DNA of 32,517 nucleotides from contig LFLC01000049.1 of assembly GCA_001543015.1 (NCBI GenBank), forward strand, positions 1-32,517, read 5' to 3'. A program made the position numbers and the translations under genes. Below, piece by piece: positions 440-17,029 of this stretch; the first letter of the stretch is position 1, and every line of letters begins with the position of its first letter. The notes under the pieces are model-generated. The model saw only the letters and a list, made by a program, of their open reading frames with translations. It did no database searches and was not told where the DNA came from. This DNA comes from Nitrosopumilus sp. LS_AOA. GTDB lineage: Archaea > Thermoproteota > Nitrososphaeria > Nitrososphaerales > Nitrosopumilaceae.

Positions 440-603
440 TTTTATATAAATCAAGAATTTATTAAAATAAATTATTTTTACTTAAATTAGTTACACAATC
501 ATTAATTATCAAAATGATCATTTTGTTCAAAGCAATCTAAATCCCAGTTTGTATAAAGTTGACACACATATGATAATAGTGGAATTACATTTAAAAAAAT
601 TAG

Positions 604-1050
604 TTGCTTGATAAATTAGAAAATTCTATAAAAGAACAACAAGATTATGATTCAACAAATGCTCTTTTTCGTGAATTTGAAAATCCTGTGGAAATAAAAC
701 AAAAAATAATATCTAAAAATTTTATTCATAATGCAATTGATACTTCTATTGAAAATACTATTGATGCTCTTGTAACTAGCACCATTAATACAGATTCATC
801 ATTGATAGATTCAAAAAATATTAAAGATACAATGAAATCTATTGAAAATTTTATGCTTAATTCTAATTTTGGTACATTTGAATATACACAAAAAACTGGT
901 AGAAATATTATCAAAGTAAAACATAGTATGGGTGTTAATGGTAGTAATTTTTGTAAAAAATTCTTTGAGCGAATATTTGGAATTTGTTTAAAGGATTATT
1001 CATTTCATGTAATTTATGATGAATACACTGTATGTGTAATTTTTAGATAA
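604..1050 (+). CDS. Hypothetical protein, 148 aa
   Basis: Unrecognised soluble protein. The N-terminal two thirds is acidic and helical-looking. The C-terminal 55 residues look like a compact domain: a GRNIIKVKHSMGVNGS stretch, then an amphipathic helix (FCKKFFERIFGICL) and two short beta-like segments ending in VCVIFR. This might be a small ligand-binding or regulatory module, but that is a guess from pattern alone. The start is a TTG directly after an in-frame TAG at 601-603, so no longer form is possible. A TATA-like TATAAAG at 552-558 would give a short leader. The stop lies 2 bp from the stop of the convergent NADH dehydrogenase gene. Confidence 0.6.
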   Translation: MLDKLENSIKEQQDYDSTNALFREFENPVEIKQKIISKNFIHNAIDTSIENTIDALVTSTINTDSSLIDSKNIKDTMKSIENFMLNSNFGTFEYTQKTGRNIIKVKHSMGVNGSNFCKKFFERIFGICLKDYSFHVIYDEYTVCVIFR

Positions 1051-1052
1051 AA

Positions 1053-2486
1053 TTACATGTTTGATAATAACTGTTCTTTAATTGATGGTACATTTTCATT
1101 AATATGTATGGCATGAATTTCTTTCTTTTTAATTATCCCTACATGTGTTACATCTCGAGCTAAAATACAATCAGTAAACCAATCTACTGCAACATTCAAT
1201 TTTTTTCCAAATGTTGGGATTTTTGATATATAATATGTTCTCCAAATTAACCATGCAGTAAGACCGCTAATGTTATGTCCTGCAATAGTGGCAATACCTA
1301 CCCTGTTTCCAATAAGTGCCATTATTCCTAAACTATGAAAAGAAAATCTGGTTAATTCTTTCTTGTTATTAAATAACAATGACAAATTTTTTGCAACAAC
1401 TTTACCCTCTCTAATTGCATGTTGTGCAGTTGATGGGTAGAAACTATTTGTTGATTGATCTTTAATTAATGCACAATCACCTAACACGAAAACATTTTCT
1501 TTATTTCTCATCATTAATGACTCATCAACTACTATTCTTTGATTTACTCCATGCTCGCATTTTAATTCTGAAATTACTTTAGTCATTTTTGTACCTCCTG
1601 TCCAAATTAATGTGGCACATGATAATTTTCCACCATTATTTAGAACTACATATTCTTCATCAGCATCATCGGCTCTTGTATTTTTCATAATTACTATTCC
1701 ATCTTTTTCAAGAACTTTAGCTGCTTTTTTTGCTAACTTTTCATTAATTTCTGGTAATATTCTATTTTTTGATGAAATCAAAATAACATTGACATTTTTT
1801 GGATTAATGCTTGGATATGATTTTGAAATAGAACTTTTAATAAATTGATTAACCTCACTTACTGTTTCTACTCCTGCAAATCCTGCACCCACTACAACAA
1901 ATGTCAATAACGTTCTTTGTAATTCATGATTTCCTGTTTGAGCTGCATGTTCTAGCATTCCAATTACATGATTTTTTACTGCAATTGCATCTGATATTGA
2001 CATCATTGTGAATGAATGTTTTTCGATGTTATCATTTCCAAAATAATTTGTCTCTCCACCTAATGCTATCACCAAATAATCATATTCTAATGCTTTAACT
2101 TTATGATCAAATGATCTTTGAATTGTAACTAGTTGTTGCTCTAAATCTATTGATTCAATTGATGCCTGCAAAAATTTTGCTTTTTTACAAAAATATCTTA
2201 CAGGGATGGTGATGTTACTTGGATGTAAAAGCCCTGAAGAAACTTGAGGTAACATTGGGGTGAACAAGTAATAATTTGCATCAGAAACAATTGTAATCTC
2301 TACTTGTTCATTTTTGAATTTTTTTTCAATATTTTGTAAGGTTGTGATTCCTCCAAATCCTCCCCCCAGAATTAATATTTTTTTTATAGATGGGGACGTG
2401 CTTTTATGAGTTGAGAGATAATGTGTATAATATTTTGATTGAGAATCAAATGTTAAATCACAATCATTGCAATTTATTGCGGACAT
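1053..2486 (-). CDS. Type II NADH dehydrogenase-like FAD oxidoreductase with N-terminal C2H2-like zinc finger
   Basis: A 477-residue flavoprotein of the NDH-2 / pyridine nucleotide-disulfide oxidoreductase family, expected to pass electrons from NAD(P)H to membrane quinone through FAD without pumping protons. Seen in the sequence: a dinucleotide-binding GGGFGG at residues 41-46, a second one (GAGFAG) at 200-205, DYLVIALGG at 136-144, and a late VFVLGDCA FAD-contact motif followed by an AQHAIREGK helix. Residues 6-27 form C-x2-C-x12-H-x4-H with a Phe four residues after the second Cys, the layout of a C2H2 zinc finger; this is not part of a standard NDH-2. The start is the only ATG before the Rossmann fold. 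It is monocistronic and convergent with the gene ending at 1050. The quinone as acceptor is inferred from the family; ferredoxin or sulfide oxidoreductases are related alternatives. Confidence 0.9.
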   Translation of the reverse strand: MSAINCNDCDLTFDSQSKYYTHYLSTHKSTSPSIKKILILGGGFGGITTLQNIEKKFKNEQVEITIVSDANYYLFTPMLPQVSSGLLHPSNITIPVRYFCKKAKFLQASIESIDLEQQLVTIQRSFDHKVKALEYDYLVIALGGETNYFGNDNIEKHSFTMMSISDAIAVKNHVIGMLEHAAQTGNHELQRTLLTFVVVGAGFAGVETVSEVNQFIKSSISKSYPSINPKNVNVILISSKNRILPEINEKLAKKAAKVLEKDGIVIMKNTRADDADEEYVVLNNGGKLSCATLIWTGGTKMTKVISELKCEHGVNQRIVVDESLMMRNKENVFVLGDCALIKDQSTNSFYPSTAQHAIREGKVVAKNLSLLFNNKKELTRFSFHSLGIMALIGNRVGIATIAGHNISGLTAWLIWRTYYISKIPTFGKKLNVAVDWFTDCILARDVTHVGIIKKKEIHAIHINENVPSIKEQLLSNM

Positions 2487-2601
2487 ATTAAAATAAAAAT
2501 ACCTCTACTAAAAACAACCTGTTTGTTTAGTTTCTACAAAAATGATTGAATTTTGAATTATATTAAAAATAGAAATTTGTTGTAATTTAAAAACACACAG
2601 T

Positions 2602-2611
2602 AAATTATATC
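2602..2611 (+). promoter_or_regulatory. TATA-like element for the gene at 2633
   Basis: AAATTATATC is centred about 27 bp before the GTG at 2633, the spacing expected when transcription begins at the start codon. A second A/T-rich box (AATATAAAATA, 2613-2623) is too close to the start to be the main TATA element. Confidence 0.4.
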
Positions 2612-2632
2612 TAATATAAAATAAATAATACT

Positions 2633-3007
2633 GTGAATTTAAAAATCACAAGTGTCGTAATAGTCCTTGTAGCAGTCTTACTTTTAGCTCAAACTGTATC
2701 TATTGTTGAGGCAAAACATAAAGCAAAAGATACGGGTGAGGAACGAAAATCAGCTGAGACAAAATCTGATGATTATGATAATGAGGGAAACTTAAAAACA
2801 ATAATTAAGGAAAAAAGAGACGCATTTGTTGCATACAAAGTTGCATTTGATGCGTGGAAAATTGCCAAAGAAGATTATAAGGCTGCAAAAACTTCTGGTG
2901 TTCAGACAACAATTGATGCAAAAAAAGTGATTTTAGATGCTGCAAAAATTACTAAAGACAAAGCATTCAAAACATATCAAGATGCAAAAAAACTGAAAGC
3001 ACGATAG
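2633..3007 (+). CDS. Secreted Lys/Ala-rich coiled-coil protein
   Basis: A 124-residue exported protein of unknown function. Residues 1-27 are a clear Sec-type signal peptide: a short basic start, a long Val/Leu core, and a VEA cleavage site before a Lys-rich mature region. The remainder is highly charged and Ala/Lys-rich with a repeated AF-x-A-x-K-x-A-K rhythm (for example DAFVAYKVAFDAWKIAKEDYKAAK), predicting one or two long amphipathic helices. No cysteines, no membrane anchor. The GTG start is supported by the upstream TATA-like box, and a run of eight T follows the stop directly. It is probably an extracytoplasmic helical protein; binding partner unknown. Confidence 0.75.
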   Translation: MNLKITSVVIVLVAVLLLAQTVSIVEAKHKAKDTGEERKSAETKSDDYDNEGNLKTIIKEKRDAFVAYKVAFDAWKIAKEDYKAAKTSGVQTTIDAKKVILDAAKITKDKAFKTYQDAKKLKAR

Positions 3008-3015
3008 TTTTTTTT
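3008..3015 (+). terminator. T-tract terminator after the coiled-coil gene
   Basis: Eight consecutive T begin at the base after the stop codon at 3005-3007 and are followed by further T-rich sequence. Archaeal RNA polymerase terminates intrinsically at such U-tracts. The next gene is convergent, which fits. Confidence 0.5.
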
Positions 3016-3063
3016 AATTTGTATATGTTACTTAATAATTTTAATAAATTCAGTTCGAATATT

Positions 3064-3717
3064 TTATAAATTTTTGACTAGAAATTTTTTTGAAATTACT
3101 ATGAAAATTGTAATTTCTGCAATTTCTACTACCATCACTTGCCAAAAATACATCACCCAACCACCCATCAATTGATCAGTAACAGCTAGAACCACTGAAA
3201 AAATTTCGAAATTCTCAATAATTAAAAACGGTAAGGATACTATTGATTCAATTTGCTCTTCTGTACTAACTTGTGATGATATTTGTTCTATAGAATCAAA
3301 ATTCCATTCTGAACCAATAATCACACCTTGATTGAGAAATTCTTCAAGTACTTGCTCTTTTAAAATCTGATAATCTGTATTTCCTGCATTAATGCTGAAA
3401 ATCGTAAAAATACCCATTGATAGAAACATTACAGTTTGAAAATAAATAATTGCTTTTTTCTTTCCTTTATGATTTTTGATGATTTGTCTTAGAAACATCT
3501 GCCCAAATATTCCTAATTTCTCTTTTTTTGATAAAAATAGTATTGCTCCAAATACTATTGAAATTATTCCTAGTGATCCAATCCAATCATCTGCAAAAAT
3601 TTCTCTTGAAAATATTCGAAGTGGAACTAATATTGCAATTAATGATATAGTAACAATGAGAAACTCTAGAAATGGATGGTAAGAATTATTTCTGTGATTA
3701 TTTTTAAAAAATGTCAT
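3064..3717 (-). CDS. Polytopic membrane protein of unknown function
   Basis: 217 residues with hydrophobic segments at about 17-34, 46-62 and 89-107, and a C-terminal pair (about 163-182 and 185-208), suggesting four or five membrane helices. A polar loop of about 50 residues (110-160) containing many Gln and Glu lies between the third and fourth. A basic KKEKLGIF...KNHKGKKK region marks a cytoplasmic loop. I do not recognise the family. The ATG overlaps the stop of the upstream gene (3714-4331) by 4 bp (ATGA), so the two are translationally coupled and probably act together at the membrane. Confidence 0.7.
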   Translation of the reverse strand: MTFFKNNHRNNSYHPFLEFLIVTISLIAILVPLRIFSREIFADDWIGSLGIISIVFGAILFLSKKEKLGIFGQMFLRQIIKNHKGKKKAIIYFQTVMFLSMGIFTIFSINAGNTDYQILKEQVLEEFLNQGVIIGSEWNFDSIEQISSQVSTEEQIESIVSLPFLIIENFEIFSVVLAVTDQLMGGWVMYFWQVMVVEIAEITIFIVISKKFLVKNL

Positions 3718-4331
3718 GGTTTAAACATTGAGGGGAGTAATTTTTTGTATTTATCAATTCCTGATGCTTGGTCATCATCATAGATATTTTCAGAAAATTT
3801 TAAAAGATTAATTTGTTTTTCAATTTCTACTAATTCTTCTATCATAGACTTTTTTTGAATCAATACATCCCCTTCTCCAATATATGAATCCATAAATGTC
3901 ATGTATGCTTGATAATAATCACGTAAATTATACAATTTTGTATAATATTCATTGTCTGTGATTCTTCCTGATGAATAATCTAAACTCTCTTGATTATATT
4001 GCGTACTAATTTTAACTCCAAATTCAATTATTTTCTCATTTCTTTCAAGATTTGGAAGTTTTAATGCATCCAGAATCTCTAGTTCCTCTACTGTAATTTC
4101 TCTAAGTGCTTTAATATTTTTATTTTCATCATTTGATACTGTTTCAATAAGTGCTTTAATATTTTTATTTTGATCATTTGATGCTGATTCAATAAATGAT
4201 AACATCACTTCCATTATTGATGCTTCCCCTAACACTGGTCCACTTATGTCCTCTTTTTCTTGAAGATTAAAAATACTAAAAACAATAACTCCAATCCCTA
4301 CGATTACCACTAAAGTAATTTTTTTGATCAT
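3714..4331 (-). CDS. Membrane-anchored extracytoplasmic helical protein with an internal 15-residue duplication
   Basis: 205 residues. An N-terminal hydrophobic helix (residues 5-21) follows MIKK and acts as a signal anchor; the remainder is soluble, acidic and helical. Residues of the form IE-x-x-SND-x-NKNIKAL occur twice in tandem, encoded by a 45-bp direct duplication (4104-4193). The middle contains a Tyr-rich region (EYYTKLYNLRDYYQAYMTFMDSY). It is the first gene of a two-gene unit with the polytopic protein that starts at 3717, with a 4-bp overlap. Function unknown. The pairing suggests a membrane complex with an external helical part. Confidence 0.7.
   Translation of the reverse strand: MIKKITLVVIVGIGVIVFSIFNLQEKEDISGPVLGEASIMEVMLSFIESASNDQNKNIKALIETVSNDENKNIKALREITVEELEILDALKLPNLERNEKIIEFGVKISTQYNQESLDYSSGRITDNEYYTKLYNLRDYYQAYMTFMDSYIGEGDVLIQKKSMIEELVEIEKQINLLKFSENIYDDDQASGIDKYKKLLPSMFKP
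4104..4193 (-). repeat. 45-bp tandem duplication inside the anchored-protein gene
   Basis: Positions 4104-4148 and 4149-4193 are two head-to-tail copies that differ at about three positions. The period is a multiple of three and adds 15 residues containing NKNIKAL. Because the copies are nearly identical at DNA level, the duplication is likely recent. Confidence 0.8.
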
Positions 4332-4450
4332 TTTTCATTCACTTCATCTTCTGTATTTTTTATTATAACAACAAGTTGACCCAAAACAAAAAACAGTCAT
4401 TTATTAGCTCAATTCTGAATTTTTAACAACGAAAAAGTGACTATTTTGTC

Positions 4451-4456
4451 TATAAG
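4451..4456 (+). promoter_or_regulatory. TATA-like element ahead of the recombinase region
   Basis: TATAAG is centred about 27 bp upstream of the ATG at 4481, not of the TTG at 4528 where the long recombinase frame begins. If used, the transcript would start at or near the ATG of the 33-residue ORF that overlaps the recombinase start. Confidence 0.4.
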
Positions 4457-4480
4457 ACACTTAGATTTGGGCACACTTTG

Positions 4481-4582
4481 ATGACTGATCTTAAAGATTT
4501 CTTTGAGAAATCGATTTTCCTTAACTATTGGAAAAATCAACAATATGCGATATTTCATGGGAGGTACACTTGTCATCACTAG
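4481..4582 (+). CDS. 33-residue ORF overlapping the recombinase start
   Basis: ATG at 4481 reads MTDLKDFFEKSIFLNYWKN and continues to a TAG at 4580-4582. It overlaps the beginning of the recombinase frame (4528) in a different frame. Its ATG is well placed behind the TATA-like element at 4451. Two readings are possible: a leader peptide coupled to the recombinase, or the original N-terminus of the recombinase separated from it by a frameshift. The shift would have to lie between 4525 and 4580, which includes the five-A run at 4531-4535. I cannot decide between these from one sequence. Confidence 0.3.
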   Translation: MTDLKDFFEKSIFLNYWKNQQYAIFHGRYTCHH

Positions 4583-5757
4583 ATTTTCTTGATGCAGTAC
4601 TCAGTGAGACCCTAACAGAGGAGGAATATCTTCAAGAACGCAGAGCTCGAAGTGAATCAAGTGCCAGCACCGTTCAAGCTGTTCTAACTAATGTCAAATT
4701 GTTCTGTATTGATCAAGCACAGTCTGATTTTGGTATGATTCTTTTGCAACTAAAACAAGATGCAGACAAAACAGGTAGACCTGCAAAGTCCCTTGTATTT
4801 TTTCAAAGATTTGTAAACTGGTTACATGCAGAACACAAAAATCTAGAGATGCCATCAAATCACTTTGGTCACTTTGAACCATACAGACCAAAATGTGTTG
4901 CAACAATTAGAAATTATGTGGGACAGCTACGACTTTATTTTAAAAAAGTAGTTGGCATTGAGATTTCTTCTGAAAAACTAGATGATTTTTTAACATATCC
5001 TGCAATAGGTGAGGTAGAAGAAGCACAAGCACTAACTCATGATGAGTTTAGACACATCGTTAGTAACATCAAAAACCCAAAACGACAGATGCTATACCTT
5101 ATCAAAAAAGATACCTGTTCTAGAATTGGTGCAATGTGTCAGCTCCGACTAGAGAATTTTAACATCACAACAAGACCGATTCAGATAACATTTCCAGCTC
5201 ATATAATGAAAAAAAACAAGAGAGGAGAAAGTAGAACCGTAAAAAAATATGTGACACAAGAAAATGAATCTGGACTCTTGAAATTATTGGAGAGTTATTC
5301 TGATCCTCGAGATATTGTATTTGGCACAAATGCCGTGCCTAAAAAGGCAATTCACAATGAGGAAAAGTTTTGGAACAAGCTGGTAAAGAGACTGGGATAC
5401 ACTGAGGTTTATCGTCATAATGGCCGACTAAAGAAAAACATCCATTCTATCAAGGCATTTACTGAAACCCAAGCTGAAAAGGCAGTAAACAAGTTTTATG
5501 CTGATGCGTATGGTGATCATGATGAATACCTAAAACAATACATCAGATGGAGTGAGGATGAAAAAATTCAGAAATTCAAGACTATGCAACCGTTGTTGAA
5601 TCTGTTTACACGAATTGAAAAAATTCATGACAAAAACCTGATTGATGAGAACAACTATCTCAAAACAAAGATTGAGGTAATGGAAGATCAACTAATAGAT
5701 GTAATGTTAAACTTGGATGCCTTGAAATCTCAGAATGTAACAAGTAGAAAATCTTAA
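4528..5757 (+). CDS. Tyrosine recombinase/integrase-like protein
   Basis: 409 residues with the layout of an archaeal tyrosine recombinase. An N-terminal helical core-binding part (about 45-140) precedes a catalytic part (about 165-355). Catalytic motifs seen: CSRIGA with R199, a Lys-rich beta region near 228-240, H306 in NIHSIKAF, H331 in YGDHDEY, and a candidate nucleophile Y338 in YLKQYIRW followed by SEDEK. The second Arg of the usual H-x-x-R is Lys309 here, so activity may be reduced or the role may be DNA binding. A C-terminal coiled coil (about 360-400) follows. No ATG or GTG lies near the 5' end; the TTG at 4528 is just after an in-frame TAA, so the true start is uncertain. Its neighbours (an HNH protein and palindrome-rich DNA) fit a mobile or formerly mobile segment. 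Confidence 0.7.
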   Translation: MEKSTICDISWEVHLSSLDFLDAVLSETLTEEEYLQERRARSESSASTVQAVLTNVKLFCIDQAQSDFGMILLQLKQDADKTGRPAKSLVFFQRFVNWLHAEHKNLEMPSNHFGHFEPYRPKCVATIRNYVGQLRLYFKKVVGIEISSEKLDDFLTYPAIGEVEEAQALTHDEFRHIVSNIKNPKRQMLYLIKKDTCSRIGAMCQLRLENFNITTRPIQITFPAHIMKKNKRGESRTVKKYVTQENESGLLKLLESYSDPRDIVFGTNAVPKKAIHNEEKFWNKLVKRLGYTEVYRHNGRLKKNIHSIKAFTETQAEKAVNKFYADAYGDHDEYLKQYIRWSEDEKIQKFKTMQPLLNLFTRIEKIHDKNLIDENNYLKTKIEVMEDQLIDVMLNLDALKSQNVTSRKS

Positions 5758-5827
5758 TTTAAAATATAATTTGATTTTTCTAAATTAGTATTAGTCGAGA
5801 TATTGTTGTTGTAAAGCACTCATTACA

Positions 5828-5842
5828 GTTTGTATCAAATGT
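5828..5842 (+). repeat. Operator-like repeat, copy 1
   Basis: GTTTGTATCAAATGT, identical to 5984-5998. The core TTTG-TAT-CAAA is an inverted repeat with a three-base centre, as expected for the site of a small dimeric DNA-binding protein. It lies 71 bp after the recombinase stop. Confidence 0.55.
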
Positions 5843-5983
5843 AACTTGGGAATAATTGATATCTTCCCTAAGAGGGATTCAAGGCTAATTAGGAATAGAT
5901 CATACTCTCTCATACATAACATCAAAGTAATTAGAATTATTAAGATTTCAAGATACACACAAGAGATCACACGTCTCCTAACC

Positions 5984-5998
5984 GTTTGTATCAAATGT
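5984..5998 (+). repeat. Operator-like repeat, copy 2
   Basis: Second exact copy of GTTTGTATCAAATGT, in the same orientation, 156 bp from the first. It is flanked by CGTCTC (5973-5978) and GAGACG (about 6001-6006), which are inverted with respect to each other. It lies about 53 bp upstream of the TATA-like element at 6051, a plausible activator or repressor position. Confidence 0.55.
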
Positions 5999-6050
5999 TA
6001 TGAGACGAACAAAATCAAAATCTTAAACATTTCTTAAAATGAAAAATACC

Positions 6051-6056
6051 TTTAAA
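6051..6056 (+). promoter_or_regulatory. TATA-like element for the 49-residue ORF
   Basis: TTTAAA inside ATACCTTTAAACAAA, centred about 24 bp before the ATG at 6077. The spacing suggests a leaderless transcript and supports the small ORF as real. Confidence 0.5.
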
Positions 6057-6076
6057 CAAAATATCCCATATTCTCT

Positions 6077-6226
6077 ATGAGTCAGCTACTCGTAAAGATA
6101 GAAACCCTTAGACGTCTCGAGTCCATTACTGGAAAGCACATCATTAGAGGCGGTGATAAAATTATCAATGAAGCCCTAGATATCATGCAAACTAAAATCA
6201 AGGAACTAGAAAATTGCAACAATTAA
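6077..6226 (+). CDS. 49-residue helical small protein
   Basis: ATG at 6077 encodes 49 residues ending at TAA 6224-6226. The start MSQLLVKIETLRRLESITG is followed by a segment ending in QTKIKELENCNN. The heptad-like Leu/Ile spacing predicts two amphipathic helices, so it may be a dimerising or partner-binding protein. It lies behind a well-placed TATA-like element and 65 bp before the HNH gene. That gene has its own Shine-Dalgarno, as expected for a second gene in an operon. No family recognised. It could be the regulator that binds the paired repeats upstream, but this is only context. Confidence 0.55.
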   Translation: MSQLLVKIETLRRLESITGKHIIRGGDKIINEALDIMQTKIKELENCNN

Positions 6227-6275
6227 TCAATTCTGGGCATGATTTACATATTTTTCTCACACACACCGAAGAGAA

Positions 6276-6282
6276 AGGAGGT
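6276..6282 (+). promoter_or_regulatory. Strong Shine-Dalgarno for the HNH gene
   Basis: AGGAGGT, a full match to the archaeal anti-Shine-Dalgarno, lies nine bases before the TTG at 6292. It fixes the start of this gene despite the weak start codon and marks it as a non-first gene of a transcript, unlike the mostly leaderless genes nearby. Confidence 0.75.
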
Positions 6283-6291
6283 AACAGCTAA

Positions 6292-6957
6292 TTGCCTTAC
6301 TGCAACAATCTATCTAATGCAAAAAAAGACAAACTGTTTCCAATCAAGCTGGATGAACAAAATTTCTGCTGCATCTTGTGTAAACTTCCCTTTGAGAAGA
6401 ATATTTTTTGGGAACAATCAACACACTTTGATCATCTAAACTGCAATGAAAAGGATCACGATCCTGCAAATATTGGAATAGTTCACATTGAATGCAACTA
6501 TATCAAAAAATGGTATGGTGAATATCAAGTACGTGCTATGGATTGGCACCGATATCTTGTTAGCAAAATTACATCATCTCTGAGTGCGAGTGAGAAAAAT
6601 ACATACACAAAGACAAACACACAGACAGATGAATTAACAGACGGTCAAATCAATTTAATAATTAACAAACTAACAAAATCCCAATTAGAGATAGAACTTC
6701 CAGAAGATTCTACAAAACAAATTCCATTTCCTGTAATGCTATCTGATATTCATTACCTTACGATACAAGAAACAGGAGGCAGAGGTTCTGAACTATCAGT
6801 TAGACGTGCATTAAATGGAATGACTAAATCACAGTTTTCTCCTTGGCAACAAAAGAAACTAGGCAAAGGCAACATCATCATACAAAGGAGAGCAAAAATT
6901 CAGGTTGAGAAAAAACTTCCAGAACTACAGATAGAACGGGACGTATGGCCTGAATGA
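6292..6957 (+). CDS. HNH-type zinc nuclease-like protein
   Basis: 221 residues. The N-terminal 75 residues carry a zinc-binding HNH-like arrangement: C27-x2-C30, then FDHLN (D47, H48), an Asn-containing link and H65-x2-C68 followed by Asn69 and two Lys. This CxxC...DH...HxxCN layout is typical of HNH endonucleases of mobile elements and restriction systems. The C-terminal part (about 105-221) is unrecognised: a helical stretch (LTDGQINLIINKLTKSQLE) followed by a basic region with GGRGSELSVRRALNGMTKSQF that might bind DNA. The strong Shine-Dalgarno at 6276 decides the TTG start. It is downstream of the 49-residue ORF and upstream of the palindrome array, which could be its substrate or control region. 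Nuclease activity is inferred from the motif. Confidence 0.65.
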   Translation: MPYCNNLSNAKKDKLFPIKLDEQNFCCILCKLPFEKNIFWEQSTHFDHLNCNEKDHDPANIGIVHIECNYIKKWYGEYQVRAMDWHRYLVSKITSSLSASEKNTYTKTNTQTDELTDGQINLIINKLTKSQLEIELPEDSTKQIPFPVMLSDIHYLTIQETGGRGSELSVRRALNGMTKSQFSPWQQKKLGKGNIIIQRRAKIQVEKKLPELQIERDVWPE

Positions 6958-7005
6958 CACAAGATTGTACCCCCCCTACCCCCTCTTAATAAAACGCCTG
7001 ACTTA

Positions 7006-7091
7006 TTCCTCATTTGAGGAAAATGTTACAAAATAACATTCAGGTCATATGACCTTGATGTTGGACAAACATTGTGGAAATGTTTCCACAA
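7006..7091. repeat. Array of four adjacent palindromes
   Basis: In order: TTCCTCA-TT-TGAGGAA (7006-7021); AATGTTA-CAAAA-TAACATT (7022-7040), directly abutting the first; AGGTCATATGACCT (7042-7055), perfect over 14 bp; and TTGTGGAAA-TG-TTTCCACAA (7072-7091), nine-base arms. The four have different sequences, so this is not a repeat family. Each could form a hairpin in single-stranded DNA or RNA, or bind a dimer. Confidence 0.85.
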
Positions 7092-7259
7092 AGTTGCAAT
7101 TGTACTTGAACTTCAAAAAAGAATTCTTATTTTGTTAGGAGTCCCATGATTTAATCAAGTACTCTAATTCCATGACGGATTAATTTTTGAGGTACCTACT
7201 TCAAAGAGTATTGAACTAAAACACAAATTCTCATTTAACAGTAAGCAACTAATCTCAAA

Positions 7260-7295
7260 TGAATCCCATATTTGGTTCAAGTCGCTAGGGATTCA
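7260..7295. repeat. 8-bp inverted repeat with 20-base loop
   Basis: TGAATCCC (7260-7267) pairs with GGGATTCA (7288-7295). The loop contains GGTTCAAGTC, which resembles a tRNA T-loop/B-box, but no other tRNA part is present. It could be an operator or a remnant of an integration site. Confidence 0.5.
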
Positions 7296-7303
7296 GTCAT
7301 GAT

Positions 7304-7312
7304 CTTTTAAAT
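7304..7312 (+). promoter_or_regulatory. TATA-like element overlapped by a palindrome, for the sulfatase operon
   Basis: CTTTTAAAT is centred about 27 bp before the GTG at 7336, giving a leaderless start. The palindrome TTAAATC-A-GATTTAA (7307-7321) overlaps the box, so a dimeric protein bound there could block promoter recognition. Confidence 0.5.
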
Positions 7313-7335
7313 CAGATTTAAGATTAAGTTATTTT

Positions 7336-9132
7336 GTGAAAATAATTATTTTTGCATTAATTCCTCTCATCCTATCCATAGGACTTGCTCCAGCTTTACC
7401 ATTTATTGATGCATTTGAAAGCTCAATTGTATGTAACAATGATCAAATTTTAGTTCAACGTTCTACAAATGAAAAATTTGCCTGTGTAAATTATGATACT
7501 GCACAAAAGTGGGTCAAGAGTGGTTTTGCTACAAGTCTTGATAAACAACTCAAAGAAGAATCTTCATTTGAAATTATTCCAACTGCAAATGGTCAAACAT
7601 TACAAAAACCAAACATAATTGTAATTATGGGCGATGATGTTGGCTGGTTAAACATCGGGGCATATCATCGAGGTCTCATGAAACATACAACTCCCAACAT
7701 TGACCAAATGGCCAGTGATGGAATGATATTTACTGATTATTATGCCGATCCTAGTTGTACTGCAGGACGTGCAAGTTTTGCTATGGGACAATTACCTATT
7801 CGTGTAGGACTGACAACTGTTGGACAAGCAGGAGTGGATCATGGTATTCCTGATGGTGCGCCAACTATTGGTACGATTTTCCAATCAATGGATTATGCCA
7901 CTGGACAGTTTGGAAAAAATCATTTTGGTGATTTGAACAAGTACTTACCAACAGTTCATGGATTTGATGAGTTCTATGGTTATCTTTACCATCTTAATGC
8001 AATGGAGGATCCACATCAAGTAAATTATCCTGATGAACTAAACACAATTTTTGGTCCTCGTAACATACTTCATACATGGGCATCTGATGTAGATGATTCT
8101 ACAGTAGACGATCGTTGGGGCAAAGTAGGAAAACAGATCATAGAAGATGATGGTGCACTACCCCCAGAAAGGATGAAAAATATTGATAGAGAAATTTTAG
8201 GACATGCAACAAACTTTATGGATGAAGCGCTAAAAGATGACAAGTCATTCTTTGTTTGGTTAAATCCATCACGTGTTCATACAAACACTCATCTAAATGA
8301 TTATTACGAAGGTCTCAGAAATTCTGAGAATGGTTGGTCTGTTTCAGAAGCTGCACATAAAGAATTTGACGATACTGTTGGTGCTGTTTTAGAATATCTT
8401 GATAAAAATAACCTTACAGACAATACAATTGTTATTGTAACTGCAGATAATGGTGCAGAGAGTTGGACTTGGCCCGATGGTGCACAAACACCATTTGCAG
8501 ACAGTAAAGGCTCATTTATGGAAGGAGGAATGCGTGTACCGCTGATTATGAAATGGCCTGGACATATTCCAACTGGTATAGTTGAAAATGGAATAATGTC
8601 TCATCTTGACATGTTACCTACTTTAGTGGCAGCAGCTGGAAACCCTAACATTGTAAAAGAACTGAAAGAAGGCAAGACGATAAATGGTGAATACTACAAA
8701 GTTCACTTAGATGGTTATAATCAAATTCCAATGATCACAGGAGAAGATGAATCAAACCGTAATGAAATTTACTATTTTGCTGGAACCAAATTTGCAGCAG
8801 TACGTGTTGATGATTACAAGTATAGATTTCTTGATTGGCCCGATGGATTATTTGGATCTACCGTTACATTGAATTTACCATCTATTGTAAATCTGCGACT
8901 TGATCCACTAGAAAAAACTAGAGTGGCGTGGGAAAACACTGATGCTTCTTCTAGTTCTTTTCAGGCTTTTGAATGGTATTTTGCTGAAAGTTGGCGCTTT
9001 GTTGTAGCACAAGATCAAATGACAAAGTTAGCTAAAACTTTTGTAGAGTTCCCACCATTGCAAGGCTCTGCATCCTTTGATGTAAAAGATGCAATGGAAA
9101 AAGCAAAAAATGTAAGTGAAATGCACAAATAA
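7336..9132 (+). CDS. Exported sulfatase (arylsulfatase family)
   Basis: 598 residues. A signal peptide (1-26) is followed by a short two-Cys module (C33 to C50, ending AQKWVKSGFA) of a kind that recurs in the large protein of this operon, and then a sulfatase domain from about 91. Active-site features: metal ligands D100/D101 in IMGDDVGW, the modified-residue motif C141-T-A-G-R145 (the C-x-A-x-R variant of CxPxR, where Cys becomes formylglycine), K194 and H196 in GQFGKNHFG, H315, and D371/N372 in TADNGAES. It should hydrolyse sulfate esters outside the cytoplasmic membrane; the substrate is unknown. It needs a formylglycine-generating enzyme, not seen in this window. A separate phosphodiesterase or phosphonate role within the alkaline phosphatase superfamily is less likely given CTAGR. 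First gene of a three-gene unit. Confidence 0.88.
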   Translation: MKIIIFALIPLILSIGLAPALPFIDAFESSIVCNNDQILVQRSTNEKFACVNYDTAQKWVKSGFATSLDKQLKEESSFEIIPTANGQTLQKPNIIVIMGDDVGWLNIGAYHRGLMKHTTPNIDQMASDGMIFTDYYADPSCTAGRASFAMGQLPIRVGLTTVGQAGVDHGIPDGAPTIGTIFQSMDYATGQFGKNHFGDLNKYLPTVHGFDEFYGYLYHLNAMEDPHQVNYPDELNTIFGPRNILHTWASDVDDSTVDDRWGKVGKQIIEDDGALPPERMKNIDREILGHATNFMDEALKDDKSFFVWLNPSRVHTNTHLNDYYEGLRNSENGWSVSEAAHKEFDDTVGAVLEYLDKNNLTDNTIVIVTADNGAESWTWPDGAQTPFADSKGSFMEGGMRVPLIMKWPGHIPTGIVENGIMSHLDMLPTLVAAAGNPNIVKELKEGKTINGEYYKVHLDGYNQIPMITGEDESNRNEIYYFAGTKFAAVRVDDYKYRFLDWPDGLFGSTVTLNLPSIVNLRLDPLEKTRVAWENTDASSSSFQAFEWYFAESWRFVVAQDQMTKLAKTFVEFPPLQGSASFDVKDAMEKAKNVSEMHK

Positions 9133-9147
9133 TAGATTTCAATAAAA

Positions 9148-9564
9148 ATGAATCTTACTAAGATTGTTTTACTTTCATTGATTGTGATTTCTTTGATAAT
9201 AATTATTCCAATAATTATTGTATCTACTTCTCAACCAACTCTTTCAATTGAAAACACAGAGTTTGGATGTACTCCTGACTTTTGGAAAAATAATTTAGAA
9301 TTATGGAGAGTTGTGAATGTTGATTATAATGCAGACTTTGATGAAACATTTGGAACTCGTTACTTTGAACCTAAAATAACTCTAAAACAGGCAATCAATT
9401 TAGAAGGTGGTGGTCTGAATCATTTAGCTGTCTCTGGAACTGCAGCATATCTTGATTCTCTGGTAAATCCCTATGCTGATTCAGAAATTCTTAGAGAACA
9501 TGTTCATGATAATCACATTCATGCGTTAGATGCCTTCATATCTCTATGTGAGGAAAATACATAG
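9148..9564 (+). CDS. Membrane-anchored CTPxxWK-domain protein
   Basis: 138 residues. An N-terminal hydrophobic helix (7-28) acts as signal anchor. The outside part opens with GCTPDFWKNNLELW, a motif known from secreted proteins of archaea and bacteria (CTPG-Y/F-WK) whose function is not established. It continues with a TLKQAINLEGGG segment and an Ala-rich helix (SGTAAYLDSL), as in that domain type. Cys41 and a C-terminal Cys (SLCEEN) could form a disulfide. There is a His-rich patch, HVHDNHIHA. The gene lies 15 bp after the sulfatase stop, and its TAG overlaps the GTG of the next gene by one base, so co-translation is likely. Confidence 0.75.
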   Translation: MNLTKIVLLSLIVISLIIIIPIIIVSTSQPTLSIENTEFGCTPDFWKNNLELWRVVNVDYNADFDETFGTRYFEPKITLKQAINLEGGGLNHLAVSGTAAYLDSLVNPYADSEILREHVHDNHIHALDAFISLCEENT

Positions 9565-12500
9565 TGACAATTACAAATAACATAAAATTTTCAATTATTT
9601 TTTCTATTGTTATTTTATTTTCTGGATATTTGTTTTCTAATGTTTCAGCTGATGAGCAACTTCCAGGAATAGTAGTTGCAGTTGAAGGAGACCCATCTTA
9701 TTTTTCAGAAGGTGGATTTGGAGTTGGTATTTTGAAATTTTTTGAAAGACCACTTGACCCATATTTGATTTCAGGTGAAACAACAGCTGAATCATCCATA
9801 GATGAAATTATGTCTGCATATGAGGAAGTATCAAACCAAGATTCTACAATTATTGTAAATGATACAGATAGAGCTCAATTTGTTGTGGTTTCTTTTTTTG
9901 GTGGAGAATTTAAAGAAAGACATTCATTTTCTACTTTTTTAAAATTTGAACATCTTAAGGAACAAAACACTGATCCCCGTGTTCCATCTCACTATGATCT
10001 TGTTGCAGAAGGATTTACTTTGGAATCACTTCCATCCAAAGATAAAGAATGGTTTTATCAGAATATTGTTTCAGGATATTTCAATCCAGGTAAAACCATA
10101 GAACCATTTGATGTGGATATTGAAATTACTACAGGTGGGGGGGAAATTCTTCAAACTTGGCAATATGTTAATTGTGATTTACTGGAATACACTCCATTTC
10201 TTAATGAAAATTTGGGAAAAATAAAATTTGTTGGAAAATTTGTTTCTGAAATTCGTGAAAAAACTGTCTTTGAATGTGAAGGATTTGGAGTGGATTTTGA
10301 ATTAAAAAAAATTCAACAAGGAAATTCTGAAATTATCAAGTCATCTAATTTTACCCCTTCTGATGATGATAGGGCAAAATCTATTCAAATTCAATTTTCA
10401 GGAGGAGAACTTGAATATACACAAACCTTTAACACATTTTCAAAGTTTGTCCCAGTAACTGAGGCAAAAATACCAATACTTGTCCCTGGAAATCCAATTG
10501 GTAAGAAACCACAATTTACTTTGGAATCACTTCCATCAAAAGACAAAGAAGAATATTACAAATTTATCGGCACATACATCAATCCAGGAAAAACTCCTGA
10601 ACCATTTGATACAACTATAAACATTCTAACTGGAGATGGCACTGTTTTACAAAAATGGCATTATACAGAATGTGATGGAACAAATTATACCACATTCTTT
10701 TTGAATAATCTTTTAGTTTACAAATTCAAGGAAGCAAATGGTTCAGAAATAAGAGACAAGACATATTTTTCATGTTCAGGATTAAACTTTGATTCTGATC
10801 TTACCAGTGAAGATAAAATTGAACTAACTGATCATAAAGTTGCTGCTGAGAACAGAGCACAAATTTTTGTTGTAAATTTTGAAGGACCAGACATTACACC
10901 TGCAAAGAAAGTATTATCATTTACAAAATTTTCATCAATAACAAATGATGAATTATCCCTACTGTTACCTAGTGCACCTTTTAATGAAACACCAAAATTC
11001 TATTTAGAATCCATACCTAGTACTGAAAATGAATGGTTTTACCAACTCATTGCAAGATATGTTAATCTTGGCAAAATTCCTGAACCCTTTGATGTAGATG
11101 TTGAAGTAATAGTTGGTGATGGAACCACATTACAAACACTACATTATTCAGAATGTGAGGTAATCAGTTACAAATCCTACTTGGATGATATACTAGTACT
11201 CAGGAAATTTACCCAACAATATGTACCAGAAATACATGATCAAACCATCTTTGAGTGTGTGGGATTTTCATTTGATGCAACTTTGTATCCTCCTGAAACT
11301 CTTCCTGAAAAGACTTTAGATTTTGTAGATTTTATTGCAGATGAGGAAAACCGTGCCCAGAGATTCGTTTTGATAATTTCAGGTGGAGACATTACAGATG
11401 AACAAACATATCATACTTTTACAAAATTTGAACCGTTATTAGAAGAAAAATCTAGCAAGACACCTGCAACACATCAGATTAACTCTGTTGGATTTTCTTT
11501 GGAATCACTTCCATCCAAAGATAAAGTGAATTTCTATCAATTTCTTAGTGACTATGTAAACCTTGTAAAGTCCCCAATACCATTTGATGCAAAAATTGAA
11601 CTTGTGACTAATAACGGAAAAATAATTCAATCTTGGAATTATGTTGATTGTAATTTAGAAAATTATGATTCCTTTCTTCAAGAAAGCTTGCTTCAGTACA
11701 CCTTTAATGGAAAAAAAGCAGTTTCTGAAATTCGAAACAAATCTTTGTTTGAGTGTGTAGGGTTTAATGTGGACTTTGATTCCCGTGATTCAAATTATGC
11801 ATTAGACCAAAAAGTAATTCCAGATATTAATGATAGAGCAGTAGCGTATATTTTCCACACCTCTGGTGGAGAACTAGAAAAAACTAGAACTACTGAATTA
11901 GTTCAAAAGTTCAATACACTTGAGAATCAAGATTTTCTAGCAGAATCACTTCCAAACGAATTTGAAACTGAACGATATGATCATGTTGCTAGTTATGTCA
12001 ATCCTGGAAAGACTCCAGAACTTTTTGATGTCAGATCTGATTTAATCACTGGTGATGGAACAATTCTTCTTTCTGGTAATTATCAAGAATGTGCGATAAC
12101 AAGTTATGCTGTATATCTAAAAGATAAAATGGGAACCATAGGCATTACTCCTTCTCTAAAATTTGAGATACGAGACAACATAATACTTCATTGTGCAGGT
12201 GCTCACCCATTGGTAATGCCTGAAAAAGATCCATTCTTTGATTTAAGTGGAAATTTGAAAAAAATAAGTCCACTGACACAAAAGGGAATCGGAATTGCAT
12301 CTGATGAAATTCAATGTAATGATGGTTTTGAGTTGATGACTAGAGCGCCCAAAAATGTTGGAGTCTGTGTAATAGATTCACATGTATCTACATTAGCAGA
12401 TAGAGGTTGGGAACATGTACCTATACCAAAATTGGTGGATTTTTCATCAAAAATAAAACAAATTATTCCTACAGATGAACAAAGAGCATTATCATTTGTT

Positions 12501-12920
12501 GTACACTTTCAGGGAACAGACATCGCTCCCCCTAAAACCATTGAAACTTTTTCAAACTTTGTACCAATAACTGATACTGATTCATCTGATCCAACCCCTA
12601 GTAGTTTACTTGATGTGAGTCAGAAACAATTCTATCTTGAGTCCCTTCCAAGTAAGGATAAAGAATGGTTTTACCAACTCATTGCAAGATATGTCAATGC
12701 GGGTAGCATACCTGAGCCCTTTGAAGTAGATGTTGATGTAATAACTGGGAATGGAAAAGTATTGCAAACCTGGGAATACAATGATTGTGAAAGAACAGAC
12801 TATCAATTGTTCTTAGATGATGCATTGTTAACTTACAAATTACATGAAAAATGGCAATCAGAAATTAAAGATAAATCTACTTTTGAGTGTGCAGGTTTGA
12901 ATCTGAATGTTTTGAAATAA
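9564..12920 (+). CDS. Large secreted protein with six cysteine-paired repeats
   Basis: 1118 residues with a Sec signal peptide (cleavage near VSA-DE, about residue 29) and no C-terminal membrane anchor. Six divergent repeats of roughly 150-165 residues begin near residues 102, 269, 430, 596, 757 and 973, each opening with an NRAQ/DRA-like motif. Each then carries a GG-E/D core, most have an ESLPSKDKEWFYQ block, and each has a VN-x-GK-x-PEPFD segment, a TGDG-x-LQ-W strand, and two Cys (one before a Y-x-x-FL helix, one in the FEC-x-G motif) that could form a disulfide per repeat. Between repeats 5 and 6 lies a CNDGFELMTR...GVCV module ending in DRGWEHVP, similar to the N-terminal module of the sulfatase. 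The GTG overlaps the previous stop. It is probably a surface or extracellular adhesive/structural protein; no family recognised. Confidence 0.85.
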   Translation: MTITNNIKFSIIFSIVILFSGYLFSNVSADEQLPGIVVAVEGDPSYFSEGGFGVGILKFFERPLDPYLISGETTAESSIDEIMSAYEEVSNQDSTIIVNDTDRAQFVVVSFFGGEFKERHSFSTFLKFEHLKEQNTDPRVPSHYDLVAEGFTLESLPSKDKEWFYQNIVSGYFNPGKTIEPFDVDIEITTGGGEILQTWQYVNCDLLEYTPFLNENLGKIKFVGKFVSEIREKTVFECEGFGVDFELKKIQQGNSEIIKSSNFTPSDDDRAKSIQIQFSGGELEYTQTFNTFSKFVPVTEAKIPILVPGNPIGKKPQFTLESLPSKDKEEYYKFIGTYINPGKTPEPFDTTINILTGDGTVLQKWHYTECDGTNYTTFFLNNLLVYKFKEANGSEIRDKTYFSCSGLNFDSDLTSEDKIELTDHKVAAENRAQIFVVNFEGPDITPAKKVLSFTKFSSITNDELSLLLPSAPFNETPKFYLESIPSTENEWFYQLIARYVNLGKIPEPFDVDVEVIVGDGTTLQTLHYSECEVISYKSYLDDILVLRKFTQQYVPEIHDQTIFECVGFSFDATLYPPETLPEKTLDFVDFIADEENRAQRFVLIISGGDITDEQTYHTFTKFEPLLEEKSSKTPATHQINSVGFSLESLPSKDKVNFYQFLSDYVNLVKSPIPFDAKIELVTNNGKIIQSWNYVDCNLENYDSFLQESLLQYTFNGKKAVSEIRNKSLFECVGFNVDFDSRDSNYALDQKVIPDINDRAVAYIFHTSGGELEKTRTTELVQKFNTLENQDFLAESLPNEFETERYDHVASYVNPGKTPELFDVRSDLITGDGTILLSGNYQECAITSYAVYLKDKMGTIGITPSLKFEIRDNIILHCAGAHPLVMPEKDPFFDLSGNLKKISPLTQKGIGIASDEIQCNDGFELMTRAPKNVGVCVIDSHVSTLADRGWEHVPIPKLVDFSSKIKQIIPTDEQRALSFVVHFQGTDIAPPKTIETFSNFVPITDTDSSDPTPSSLLDVSQKQFYLESLPSKDKEWFYQLIARYVNAGSIPEPFEVDVDVITGNGKVLQTWEYNDCERTDYQLFLDDALLTYKLHEKWQSEIKDKSTFECAGLNLNVLK
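9867..12917 (+). repeat. Six-fold domain repeat within the secreted protein
   Basis: Repeat starts on DNA are near 9867, 10368, 10851, 11349, 11832 and 12480. Spacing is about 480-500 bp, except for the last interval, which carries an inserted two-Cys module. The block encoding ESLPSKDKEWF is the best conserved at DNA level (copies near 10022, 10525, 11503 and 12643). Repeat 5 is the most diverged (ESLPNEFETERY). Confidence 0.85.
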
Positions 12921-12986
12921 ATTTTGATTTTTAGCAAATTTTGCACTTAAAACATATCTGTCAATCATCTCACAAACAAAAATAAT

Positions 12987-13361
12987 CTAAGATGATTTGT
13001 TGGAGAAAAATTTGGTTTGCTGAAAGTAAAATAATATTCCAGTTTTAACATTAAACCCAAATGCATTAAAAGGAAGTCCCTTGGTAGGACTAGTTCCTGT
13101 TAACATGTAACCCTCTTTTGTTAATTTTTCAAATTCAGATAGAAATGATTCATAGTTTTTTGGTCCACTATGTAATATTGCAAGAGCATCATTTTTTAAC
13201 ACAAGAGAATCTTTAGTCGTTAGTTTTTTTCTAATATCTTTTATACCGCCTTTTAGATAATGAAATTCTTCTTTAGCTTCTTTGTTGATCTCATCTTTGT
13301 GAATTTTTTTATCGAATCTCTTTTTCATGGAATCTTTTTTGACTTTGTTTAAAATTCCCAT
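12987..13361 (-). CDS. Basic hypothetical protein, 124 aa
   Basis: The N-terminal 50 residues are strongly basic and helical (KKDSMKKRFDKKIHKDE and onward). The C-terminal 75 residues look like a small alpha/beta domain with ALAILHSGPKNYESFLSEFEKLTKEGY followed by two strands ending in GILFYFQQTKFF. No signal peptide, membrane segment or cysteine. The tail resembles archaeal small proteins with a GY-x-L-x-G-x-S pattern, but I recognise no family. The ATG is 44 bp from the ATG of the divergent gene at 13406, and both appear to use one symmetrical TATA region. Confidence 0.65.
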   Translation of the reverse strand: MGILNKVKKDSMKKRFDKKIHKDEINKEAKEEFHYLKGGIKDIRKKLTTKDSLVLKNDALAILHSGPKNYESFLSEFEKLTKEGYMLTGTSPTKGLPFNAFGFNVKTGILFYFQQTKFFSNKSS

Positions 13362-13378
13362 CCTATTTTTTGTGTAAT

Positions 13379-13390
13379 TTTATAATAAAA
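13379..13390. promoter_or_regulatory. Shared bidirectional TATA element
   Basis: TTTATAATAAAA reads as a TATA-like box on both strands. Its centre (about 13384) is about 22 bp from both the ATG at 13406 (+) and the ATG at 13361 (-). Both transcripts would be leaderless, and only one pre-initiation complex could occupy the site at a time. Confidence 0.6.
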
Positions 13391-13405
13391 GGTTTTTACA
13401 GTTAA

Positions 13406-13807
13406 ATGCATCAAAGTCATTCTAAAAGTATATCCGAAACTAAAACATATGCTCATACATTACCTTTAGATGTTATATCTGAAAAACTGGGTAACCACTT
13501 ACAGGGTAAACATAGTTGTGAAGTATCATATGTGGGAGACCTTAATCTTCCCATAACTTGGTGCTTTATTCAAACAAGAAGACATGGACACATAAAACAA
13601 ATGAATGAAAAATGTATTGATATTACAATACAAGGTTCTAGAGACGAATGTAAGATAACCGTATCTTCTGGAGAATGGGGGAAAAATACCTTTGATGATT
13701 CTAAACCCTTGACTCCTTACAAAGGAATTAATTCGAAAGAAGGGGGAACACTTGGTTCTTTAATTACGGAGAAACAAATTTGGAAGTTTCTAGATAAAAA
13801 TATCTAG
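13406..13807 (+). CDS. Hypothetical soluble protein, 133 aa
   Basis: Unrecognised. The N-terminus is polar and His/Ser-rich. From about residue 38 there is a beta-rich core with CEVSYVGDLNLPITWCFIQT, then CIDITIQGS and CKITVSSGEWG, containing four Cys. The C-terminus ends in a helix (LITEKQIWKFLDKNI). There is no signal peptide, so it is probably cytoplasmic, where paired cysteines may bind a metal. It is divergent from the basic protein at 12987-13361 through a shared TATA element, which suggests coordinated or mutually exclusive expression. Confidence 0.65.
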   Translation: MHQSHSKSISETKTYAHTLPLDVISEKLGNHLQGKHSCEVSYVGDLNLPITWCFIQTRRHGHIKQMNEKCIDITIQGSRDECKITVSSGEWGKNTFDDSKPLTPYKGINSKEGGTLGSLITEKQIWKFLDKNI

Positions 13808-13865
13808 TTAATCTTTTGAATAAATGAACGTTAAAACAAAAAATAGATATTTCTAGTAAAATTTC

Positions 13866-14252
13866 CTATACTGTTTTATCGTTGAACCATTGGATTACGT
13901 GGGGTTTTCCCATGTATGCAATTACTGCTACATTGATTATGATTGAAAATATTGCAAACATATTTCCTGAAAGTACGTTGATTACACCAAAGATTAATCC
14001 AATTGCGGCCAAACCTTTGACTAAGCTTCGTGCAAAACTCTTTCGAGATACTATAGCTCCTGCAATTGAAAAGTGAACACCTACAATAATCCAATCCCAT
14101 ATGGCTCCAAATGTTCCAAGGAATCCTAGTCCTGCATCTTCAAAAAATGCTGCAATAATGAATGGAATGCTGATAATTACATGAATTAATAAAAACAGTC
14201 CACTAAATGCGTGAAGGCTTGCAATAATTCCTACGCCAGATGGAATATTCAC
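13866..14252 (-). CDS. Four-helix membrane protein of unknown function
   Basis: 128 residues with four hydrophobic segments (about 8-35, 42-66, 78-96 and 98-113) and few charges. It contains Gly-rich helix contacts (GLGFLGTFGAIWDW) and a basic loop (SRKSFARSLVK). The layout resembles small four-helix membrane proteins related to DoxX/SPW types, but no signature allows assignment. The start is GTG at 14250-14252; an ATG two bases upstream is out of frame. A TATA-like box at 14271-14282 is correctly spaced for a leaderless transcript from this GTG. Confidence 0.75.
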   Translation of the reverse strand: MNIPSGVGIIASLHAFSGLFLLIHVIISIPFIIAAFFEDAGLGFLGTFGAIWDWIIVGVHFSIAGAIVSRKSFARSLVKGLAAIGLIFGVINVLSGNMFAIFSIIINVAVIAYMGKPHVIQWFNDKTV

Positions 14253-14270
14253 ATTCTAGAAATTTTTTAG

Positions 14271-14282
14271 GATTATATAATA
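14271..14282 (-). promoter_or_regulatory. TATA-like element for the four-helix membrane protein
   Basis: On the minus strand TATTATATAATC is centred about 25 bp before the GTG at 14252. It supports GTG as the true start. Confidence 0.55.
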
Positions 14283-14359
14283 CCGATGAATTCTCGTGGA
14301 ATTGAGCCTAGATCGAGTAAATTTATGAATAAATCTGATTTAGGGTTAAATTTTGGGCA

Positions 14360-14476
14360 ATGAATAAAGTTTCATTGTTAGTTTTATCTAAAATTTTAGA
14401 TAGAAGACAAAAGGCTAGTTGCAATTGTTGTAAATGTAATAATTATGTTTTAGAGAATGATCATTGGTCACATTAG
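14360..14476 (+). CDS. 38-residue Cys-rich micro-ORF
   Basis: ATG at 14360 encodes 38 residues to TAG 14474-14476. The N-terminal half is a basic amphipathic helix (MNKVSLLVLSKILDRRQK). The C-terminal half contains C-N-C-C-K-C followed by NNYVLENDHWSH, giving four Cys and two His in 16 residues, a possible metal site. A weak TATA-like AATAAATC lies about 27 bp upstream. It ends 21 bp before the HEPN-like gene and is in the same direction, so they may be co-transcribed. Too short to be sure; the dense Cys/His pattern is the main support. Confidence 0.4.
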   Translation: MNKVSLLVLSKILDRRQKASCNCCKCNNYVLENDHWSH

Positions 14477-14497
14477 TATTCAAGGTTAAATCCATCA

Positions 14498-15160
14498 ATG
14501 AAAAAGAAAATCATGACAGAATTAGAAGATTTTGAAGCTGATATGCTAAGACTTCTGATGGTCTCACAAAGAGTGTGGACAATTCACAAAGAATTTCCAA
14601 ATTTAACAGAAAAAACTCAACATGGGATGTTTGTACGACATATTTTTCGAGAATACACTGTCATCAATTTAGTTAATTTCATAAAAGTTAGAAGAGATTT
14701 AACCAAAAACAAAGATTTTGAAAAATTAGATGATGTCTTAAAACCACTTGTTGAACCTATCTTAAAACATGAAAATGCAATTTTCCAATTAAGAAATCAA
14801 TACATTGCTCATGTACAAGAAGATGGTAGAAAATTCAAAGTTATGATCAATGAAATCATAACAAAAAATAACTTCCCAACAAATTTTGGATTTTATCGAT
14901 ATCTAGCTGGTCTTGCAGGACTTTATTGTGGTATAGTTGAAAATAATTACAAAAAAGTATGGGATGAAGCATTAAGAAAATATACTGAAATAGGAGGAGA
15001 AGGGGTGTCTCTAAATTCAGGATTTGATATGGATGATGTTGGCAAGATGCTTACAGATGTAGCGAAGCCAGTAGAAATAAAATTATTTGATGAAGGATTC
15101 GTTCCCACTCTTAGTAAAGCGCAAATGGAATTAATTAAAAAATCACTTGAAAAAAAATAA
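14498..15160 (+). CDS. HEPN-like helical protein
   Basis: 220 residues, almost all helical. Residues 87-110 contain a long helix with LRNQYIAHVQED, which fits the R-x5-H motif (Arg followed by Asn and, five residues on, His) of HEPN domains such as the AbiU2-like group. Those are often metal-independent RNases or nucleotidyltransferase partners in toxin-antitoxin and abortive-infection systems. No antitoxin or nucleotidyltransferase gene is adjacent; the only close neighbour is the Cys-rich micro-ORF upstream. An alternative is a non-catalytic helical protein restricted to this group. Assignment to HEPN rests on the motif and predicted helices only. Confidence 0.55.
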   Translation: MKKKIMTELEDFEADMLRLLMVSQRVWTIHKEFPNLTEKTQHGMFVRHIFREYTVINLVNFIKVRRDLTKNKDFEKLDDVLKPLVEPILKHENAIFQLRNQYIAHVQEDGRKFKVMINEIITKNNFPTNFGFYRYLAGLAGLYCGIVENNYKKVWDEALRKYTEIGGEGVSLNSGFDMDDVGKMLTDVAKPVEIKLFDEGFVPTLSKAQMELIKKSLEKK

Positions 15161-15246
15161 TAATCTTTAAGTTATATTCAATACTACATTACTTATGATT
15201 GATTATATTTTGATTTGTCAAAAAAGTGTAGTCATTTCTAAGTACT

Positions 15247-15507: not shown

Positions 15508-15510
15508 AAA

Positions 15511-16674: not shown

Positions 16675-16696
16675 ATTGAGCCTATCAAAATTCTTC

Positions 16697-16706
16697 TATT
16701 ATATTT
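16697..16706 (-). promoter_or_regulatory. TATA-like element for citrate synthase
   Basis: The minus-strand reading AAATATAATA is centred 27 bp before the ATG at 16674, consistent with a leaderless transcript. Confidence 0.55.
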
Positions 16707-16792
16707 TCTCTAAAAATACGTCTCTGAAGTTTAGTAATTAGTCTATTATGCCAACTTTTGGTCCTAAATGAAAATATTTAATCAGAAATTAA

Positions 16793-16984: not shown

Positions 16985-17029
16985 TTTCCATTCTTAATTT
17001 AAATAAGGTTCATAATTTTTCTAATCATC

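Follow-up and report, generated by a model that had tools for sequence, protein, structure and literature searches.

The closest described counterparts of the locus examined here are the cryptic integrated elements (CIEs) of Thaumarchaeota, which, in the portions of the published account available, are small, carry cargo genes and a tyrosine recombinase near one end, have no recognized capsid, conjugation or casposase genes, and are bounded by short direct repeats, the thaumarchaeal attachment (att) sites being as short as 8 bp, with a median of 17 (Krupovic et al. 2019, PMC6563490). Comparison with the window, the 32,517-nt stretch of Nitrosopumilus sp. LS_AOA DNA that was analyzed, shows that positions ~4445–15256 are a 10.8-kb integrated element sharing each of these properties, with direct repeats of 11 bp. 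By gene content it matches the Thaumarchaeota CIEs and can be regarded as a putative CIE of Nitrosopumilus. In contrast to the CIEs as presented in the same portions of that account, the window element appears intergenic; it also harbors two repeated modules, A and B, and a cluster of palindromes, of which no mention was found in those portions.

The integrated element and its recombinase

The features that delimit and fill the element, all on the + strand, are as follows.

4445–4455, +: left attachment repeat, TTTGTCTATAA, 11 bp, an exact direct repeat of 15246–15256; empty site in G041:C28
4528–5757, +: tyrosine recombinase (integrase), 409 aa, from alignment; relatives match Pfam PF00589
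6077–6229, +: small ORF, 49 aa, from translation
6292–6957, +: HNH-type ORF, 221 aa; CxxC...DH...HxxCN by eye, weak PHROG HNH matches
7336–9132, +: sulfatase, element cargo; Pfam PF00884, E 4e-47
9564–12920, +: 1118-aa protein with a WING-49 domain, cargo; its relative adjoins the sulfatase in G127
15246–15256, +: right attachment repeat, TTTGTCTATAA, 11 bp

The element is recognized as such because G041:C28, a contig of a related Nitrosopumilus genome, has the empty site and the window has 11-bp direct repeats at both ends. The G041:C28 sequence aligns to window 441–4455 and 15243–22040, with 98–99% identity at both junctions, and the intervening DNA is missing from it; the protein encoded at 3714–4331, to the left of the array region, likewise has its best relative there. 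On their element sides, the repeats carry TCTAAGT and ACTTAGA; in a circular form these would stand inverted on either side of the core, as expected of a recombinase site. Scans of the element ORFs with Pfam, NCBIfam and PHROG, in which ORF and library coverage was partial, revealed no provirus, casposon or conjugation hallmark genes. Family searches also recognized no replication protein or initiator, and several ORFs have no assigned function. When 6078–7335 was used to query plasmid and phage collections, no matches were obtained.

The recombinase gene starts 73 bp inside the left end of the element. The protein itself gave no direct Pfam match above threshold, but its relatives at 20–30% identity match the phage integrase family PF00589. 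Relatives are present in 37 of 95 Nitrosopumilus genomes; none was confirmed in viral contigs. Residues R199, K228, H331 and Y338 are retained, whereas the arginine of the HxxR motif, present in 17 of 17 aligned relatives, is replaced by lysine, K309 (HSIK), and some box I residues deviate too. The recombinase may be inactive or altered, and with the K309 substitution the element may no longer be mobile.

The cargo consists of the sulfatase and surface-protein-like genes, the WING-49 domain being common to the sulfatase and the 1118-aa protein. Close relatives of the sulfatase were found only in G116 and G127. The HNH-type ORF has 12 matches in 9 of the 95 genomes, its own genome included, three of them with an integrase homologue beside them; no arrays were found downstream of the HNH relatives.

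Tandem repeats were observed elsewhere in the window. ORF 3714–4331 contains a 45-bp repeat in 2.1 copies (4103–4195) and has a shorter orthologue in G041. A 27-bp repeat in 5.6 copies, 99% identical, lies at 17047–17197, at the start of a DHH-family ORF (17030–18178), and a perfect 15-bp repeat, AATCAAAACAAACCT, runs for 10.5 copies up to the contig end (32361–32517).

Density and symmetry of the palindromes

Between the HNH-type ORF and the sulfatase gene lies the palindrome array, at 7006–7091, with the following components, none of which has a strand.

7006–7021: palindrome 1, TTCCTCA-tt-TGAGGAA, perfect inverted repeat
7022–7040: palindrome 2, AATGTTA-caaaa-TAACATT, perfect inverted repeat
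7042–7055: palindrome 3, AGGTCATATGACCT, no spacer; center of a 28-bp imperfect palindrome, 7035–7062
7067–7085: fifth palindrome, AAACATT-gtgga-AATGTTT, overlapping palindrome 4
7072–7091: palindrome 4, TTGTGGAAA-tg-TTTCCACAA, perfect inverted repeat

The initial annotation had described four inverted repeats in 86 bp, the first two abutting without a gap. All four are present as described and do not overlap one another, and all their arms are perfect Watson–Crick complements; the fifth overlaps the last of them. The array is real and its density is exceptional. Counting perfect arms of ≥7 with a spacer of ≤6, there are 627 perfect inverted repeats in the 591 kb of this genome that served as background, or 1.06 per kb, and 7006–7091 is the sole cluster of four non-overlapping repeats in 86 bp. 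In order-2 Markov sequence simulated four times at 591 kb, 2.4 Mb in all, no such cluster arose and one cluster of three did, and in 3,000 simulations with the local 378-bp composition no cluster exceeded two palindromes. Other fetched loci, 1.10 Mb that take in the background stretches and are for the rest almost entirely from Nitrosopumilus, reached at most three palindromes per 100 bp and never four. The comparison with simulated sequence that had been proposed thus left the cluster of four unmatched, which supports the earlier judgment that chance is an unlikely explanation.

It had also been stated that the palindromes differ in sequence and so are not copies of one site. They are not entirely unrelated, however: the half-site AATGTT/AACATT occurs four times in the array (7022, 7035, 7068 and 7079) within about 60 bp, and no 60-bp stretch elsewhere in the window has as many. 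The imperfect palindrome at 7035–7062 extends palindrome 3. Neither a DNA search nor a single-sequence covariance model found homologues of the array in 95 Nitrosopumilus genomes, and one exact pattern of it was absent from viral contigs.

Repeated modules flanking the array

The array sits between modules A and B, which recur in five Nitrosopumilus genomes, and a further dispersed stretch, module C, follows.

6936–6994, +: module A; core ACGTATGGCCTGAATG at 6941–6956, overlapping the end of the HNH ORF, then a C-rich tract and the TATA-like TTAATAAA
7112–7198, +: module B core, AAAAAAG...GGTACCTAC; longer homology, 7106–7228, in four copies
7220–7321, +: module C, another intergenic stretch of dispersed type, including TGGTTCAAGnCnCTAnnGATTCA; matched in part in G009, G035, G046 and G041

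Module A (59 bp) has five further copies, in G045:C30, G113:C69, G113:C91, G000:C12 and G013:C1; across 250 genomes of the family, its 16-bp core with ≤1 mismatch was found in just 3, each belonging to this genus. For module B, which spans about 120 bp after the array, there are 12 clear copies in 4 genomes, five of them, including that of the window, in this genome. Module B (window 7112–7228; G000 C12, C29, C31 and C34; G113 C3, C69, C91 and C97) is a dispersed multi-copy intergenic repeat in few Nitrosopumilus genomes and ends with a nearly invariant GGTACC. Around the module B copies of G000:C29 and C12 (L058, L059) and G000:C31 (L053), several further direct repeats of 60–130 bp are held in common, suggesting a larger intergenic repeat family in that genome.

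The settings of the paired modules vary. In G113:C69 they enclose another spacer and follow a tyrosine recombinase gene, and in G113:C91 and G000:C12, again with other spacers, they lie downstream of pairs of DNA methylase and HNH-like ORFs. In G013 the module A core is located between host-type genes. In G045:C30 the modules reside within a 1.25-kb insertion that has no integrase, is bounded by a 12-bp end repeat with one mismatch, and has an empty site in at least 6 related genomes; it is a possible mini-element. The insertion (locus L052, ~5016–6268) holds two small ORFs, of 112 and 200 aa. The HNH gene was considered as the carrier of the modules and rejected, given that they are also present next to a recombinase, near host-type genes (G013) and within the integrase-less insertion. 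Module B as a gene was also discarded; its reading frame stays open in some copies (G041:C5, G045:C30), but stop codons break it in the window copy and elsewhere.

No two copies agree in the length or sequence of the spacer between the modules, and G045:C30 has none. In the window, this variable A–B spacer is thus filled by the palindromes. Such variation, including the loss in G045:C30, would fit a neutral or decaying remnant, the spacer being a soft spot that gathers unrelated sequence, here palindromes by happenstance, and the substitution at a catalytic position of the integrase agrees with this. However, drift is not expected to give four perfect adjacent palindromes, and we consider such a remnant rather improbable. 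The array is absent from all other A–B copies and from the 95 genomes of the genus, which counts against a selected control site.

The modules also bear on the suggestion that the array holds operators for several regulators of the sulfatase operon. The array does lie upstream of the sulfatase gene on the same strand, but ~245 bp and two repeated modules intervene before the start, the sequence in common with the sulfatase relatives begins only at ~7321, and elsewhere the A–B blocks precede unrelated cargo. A role as sulfatase operators is therefore quite unlikely.

Action as DNA or as RNA

Folded as RNA (−33.8 kcal/mol), 6990–7110 has z scores against shuffles of −4.5 for the + strand and −3.5 for the − strand; folded as DNA, it scores −3.3 and −4.4, respectively. 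Because palindromes must fold on both strands, these scores cannot tell an RNA structure from a DNA one. A structured RNA, as had been envisaged in the initial annotation, is the main and a serious rival to a DNA site, although on balance we think it unlikely. It would be a small RNA or leader starting from the TATA-like TTAATAAA at ~6988–6995, with hairpins able to switch through alternative AATGTT/AACATT pairing. The stronger RNA fold on the + strand is consistent with it, as are the mutually exclusive pairings of these segments, in which TAACATT pairs either with AATGTTA or with GATGTTG, and the TATA-like TTTATAAA/TTAATAAA that comes after a C-tract in several copies of module A. Against it, Rfam and tRNA searches gave no match to known models, and the array occurs in no relative and so offers none for covariation. 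That the A–B spacers at other loci would be equally structured was rejected, their folding being not clearly better than that of shuffles. Module B was likewise rejected as a structured RNA, its RNAalifold consensus being only −2.7 kcal/mol with little covariation. Intrinsic terminators were also set aside: only on the minus strand did two hairpins with T-rich tails score, and no minus-strand gene ends there.

We tentatively favor, at somewhat less than an even chance, the view that these symmetric sites form a lineage-specific cluster within the principal non-coding control region of the 10.8-kb tyrosine-recombinase CIE and most likely work as DNA. A DNA role is preferred because the palindromes are perfect, one is spacerless, half-sites recur and the array is placed beside the recombinase module. 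Palindrome 3, having no spacer, could form an RNA stem of only 5 bp, which makes a dimer-binding site a better fit for it than a hairpin. We infer a cis-acting control site at which dimeric proteins, encoded by the element or the host, would bind the palindromes; alternatively, hairpins would extrude from them in the single-stranded state. Bound or extruded, they would control the neighboring int-HNH module, or the replication or transcription start of the excised element. Favoring such a control region, the A–B modules beside the array recur, including beside a tyrosine recombinase (G113:C69), and palindrome- and iteron-rich non-coding DNA lies directly 3′ of the integrase in some elements of this integrase family, most clearly in G040:C2, with a palindrome excess after the integrase in G103 and G053 as well. 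Counting against it, most integrase loci show no palindrome excess and no replication protein was recognized in the element, while the significance of the fold as RNA too counts against a DNA role.

Plasmid replication origins can be of an iteron or palindrome-rich type. Like these, the window array is non-coding, palindromic and within a mobile element, and G040:C2 shows a clear iteron-like stretch after its integrase, by its sequence resembling an iteron region or origin. This 0.8-kb non-coding stretch (locus L181, ~2290–3060) has ATCGATA 18 times and AAAAGAT/ATCTTTT 14 times in 1.5 kb. Unlike the iteron origins, the window element has no recognized initiator, and the array has no repeated iteron except the AATGTT half-site. 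Similarly, phage lambda-type attP regions (reviewed in PMC8371274) present clustered binding-type sites near the recombinase gene of the element, but ~2.5 kb separate the window array from the attachment core, to which it is not joined by any arm-site repeat. Of the earlier proposal that the array serves as a plasmid origin or as an integration or nuclease substrate, the setting is upheld, as the array is inside an integrated element and near a recombinase and an HNH-type ORF; the array is not, however, the attachment site, which lies at 4445–4455 and 15246–15256.

The array also resembles integron attC sites: it is a variable segment able to form hairpins, its ends are conserved, and a tyrosine recombinase is close by. 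A single-strand hairpin recombination site of this type, used for cargo gain, would make sense of the nearby recombinase, the variable cargo and the variable palindromic spacer between fixed ends. Yet inspection of 6958–7335 found no properly ordered RYYYAAC...GTTRRRY core pair flanking the array, which is a single copy rather than one site per cassette and belongs to no cassette array, and the attachment sites were found elsewhere, at 4445 and 15246. We regard an attC-type site as highly improbable.

The array is unusual in detail and ordinary in kind, and what is explained is its location, within the non-coding DNA of a CIE. More speculatively, and with rather low likelihood, modules A and B, together with the variable palindromic spacer between them, would act in cis in the mobility or replication of integrated elements that form an undescribed family in Nitrosopumilus. 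If so, the spacer would set element specificity, and integrase-less mini-insertions such as that of 1.25 kb in G045 would be mobilized in trans via the modules. Ammonia-oxidizing archaea are among the most abundant microbes of the ocean and have few genetic tools, and the cis-acting, non-coding DNA of their mobile elements is very poorly characterized. Taken together, the boundaries and empty site of the element, its marked control region and a mini-version that has the same modules but no integrase provide a concrete candidate for the sequences required to move or maintain DNA in these organisms.
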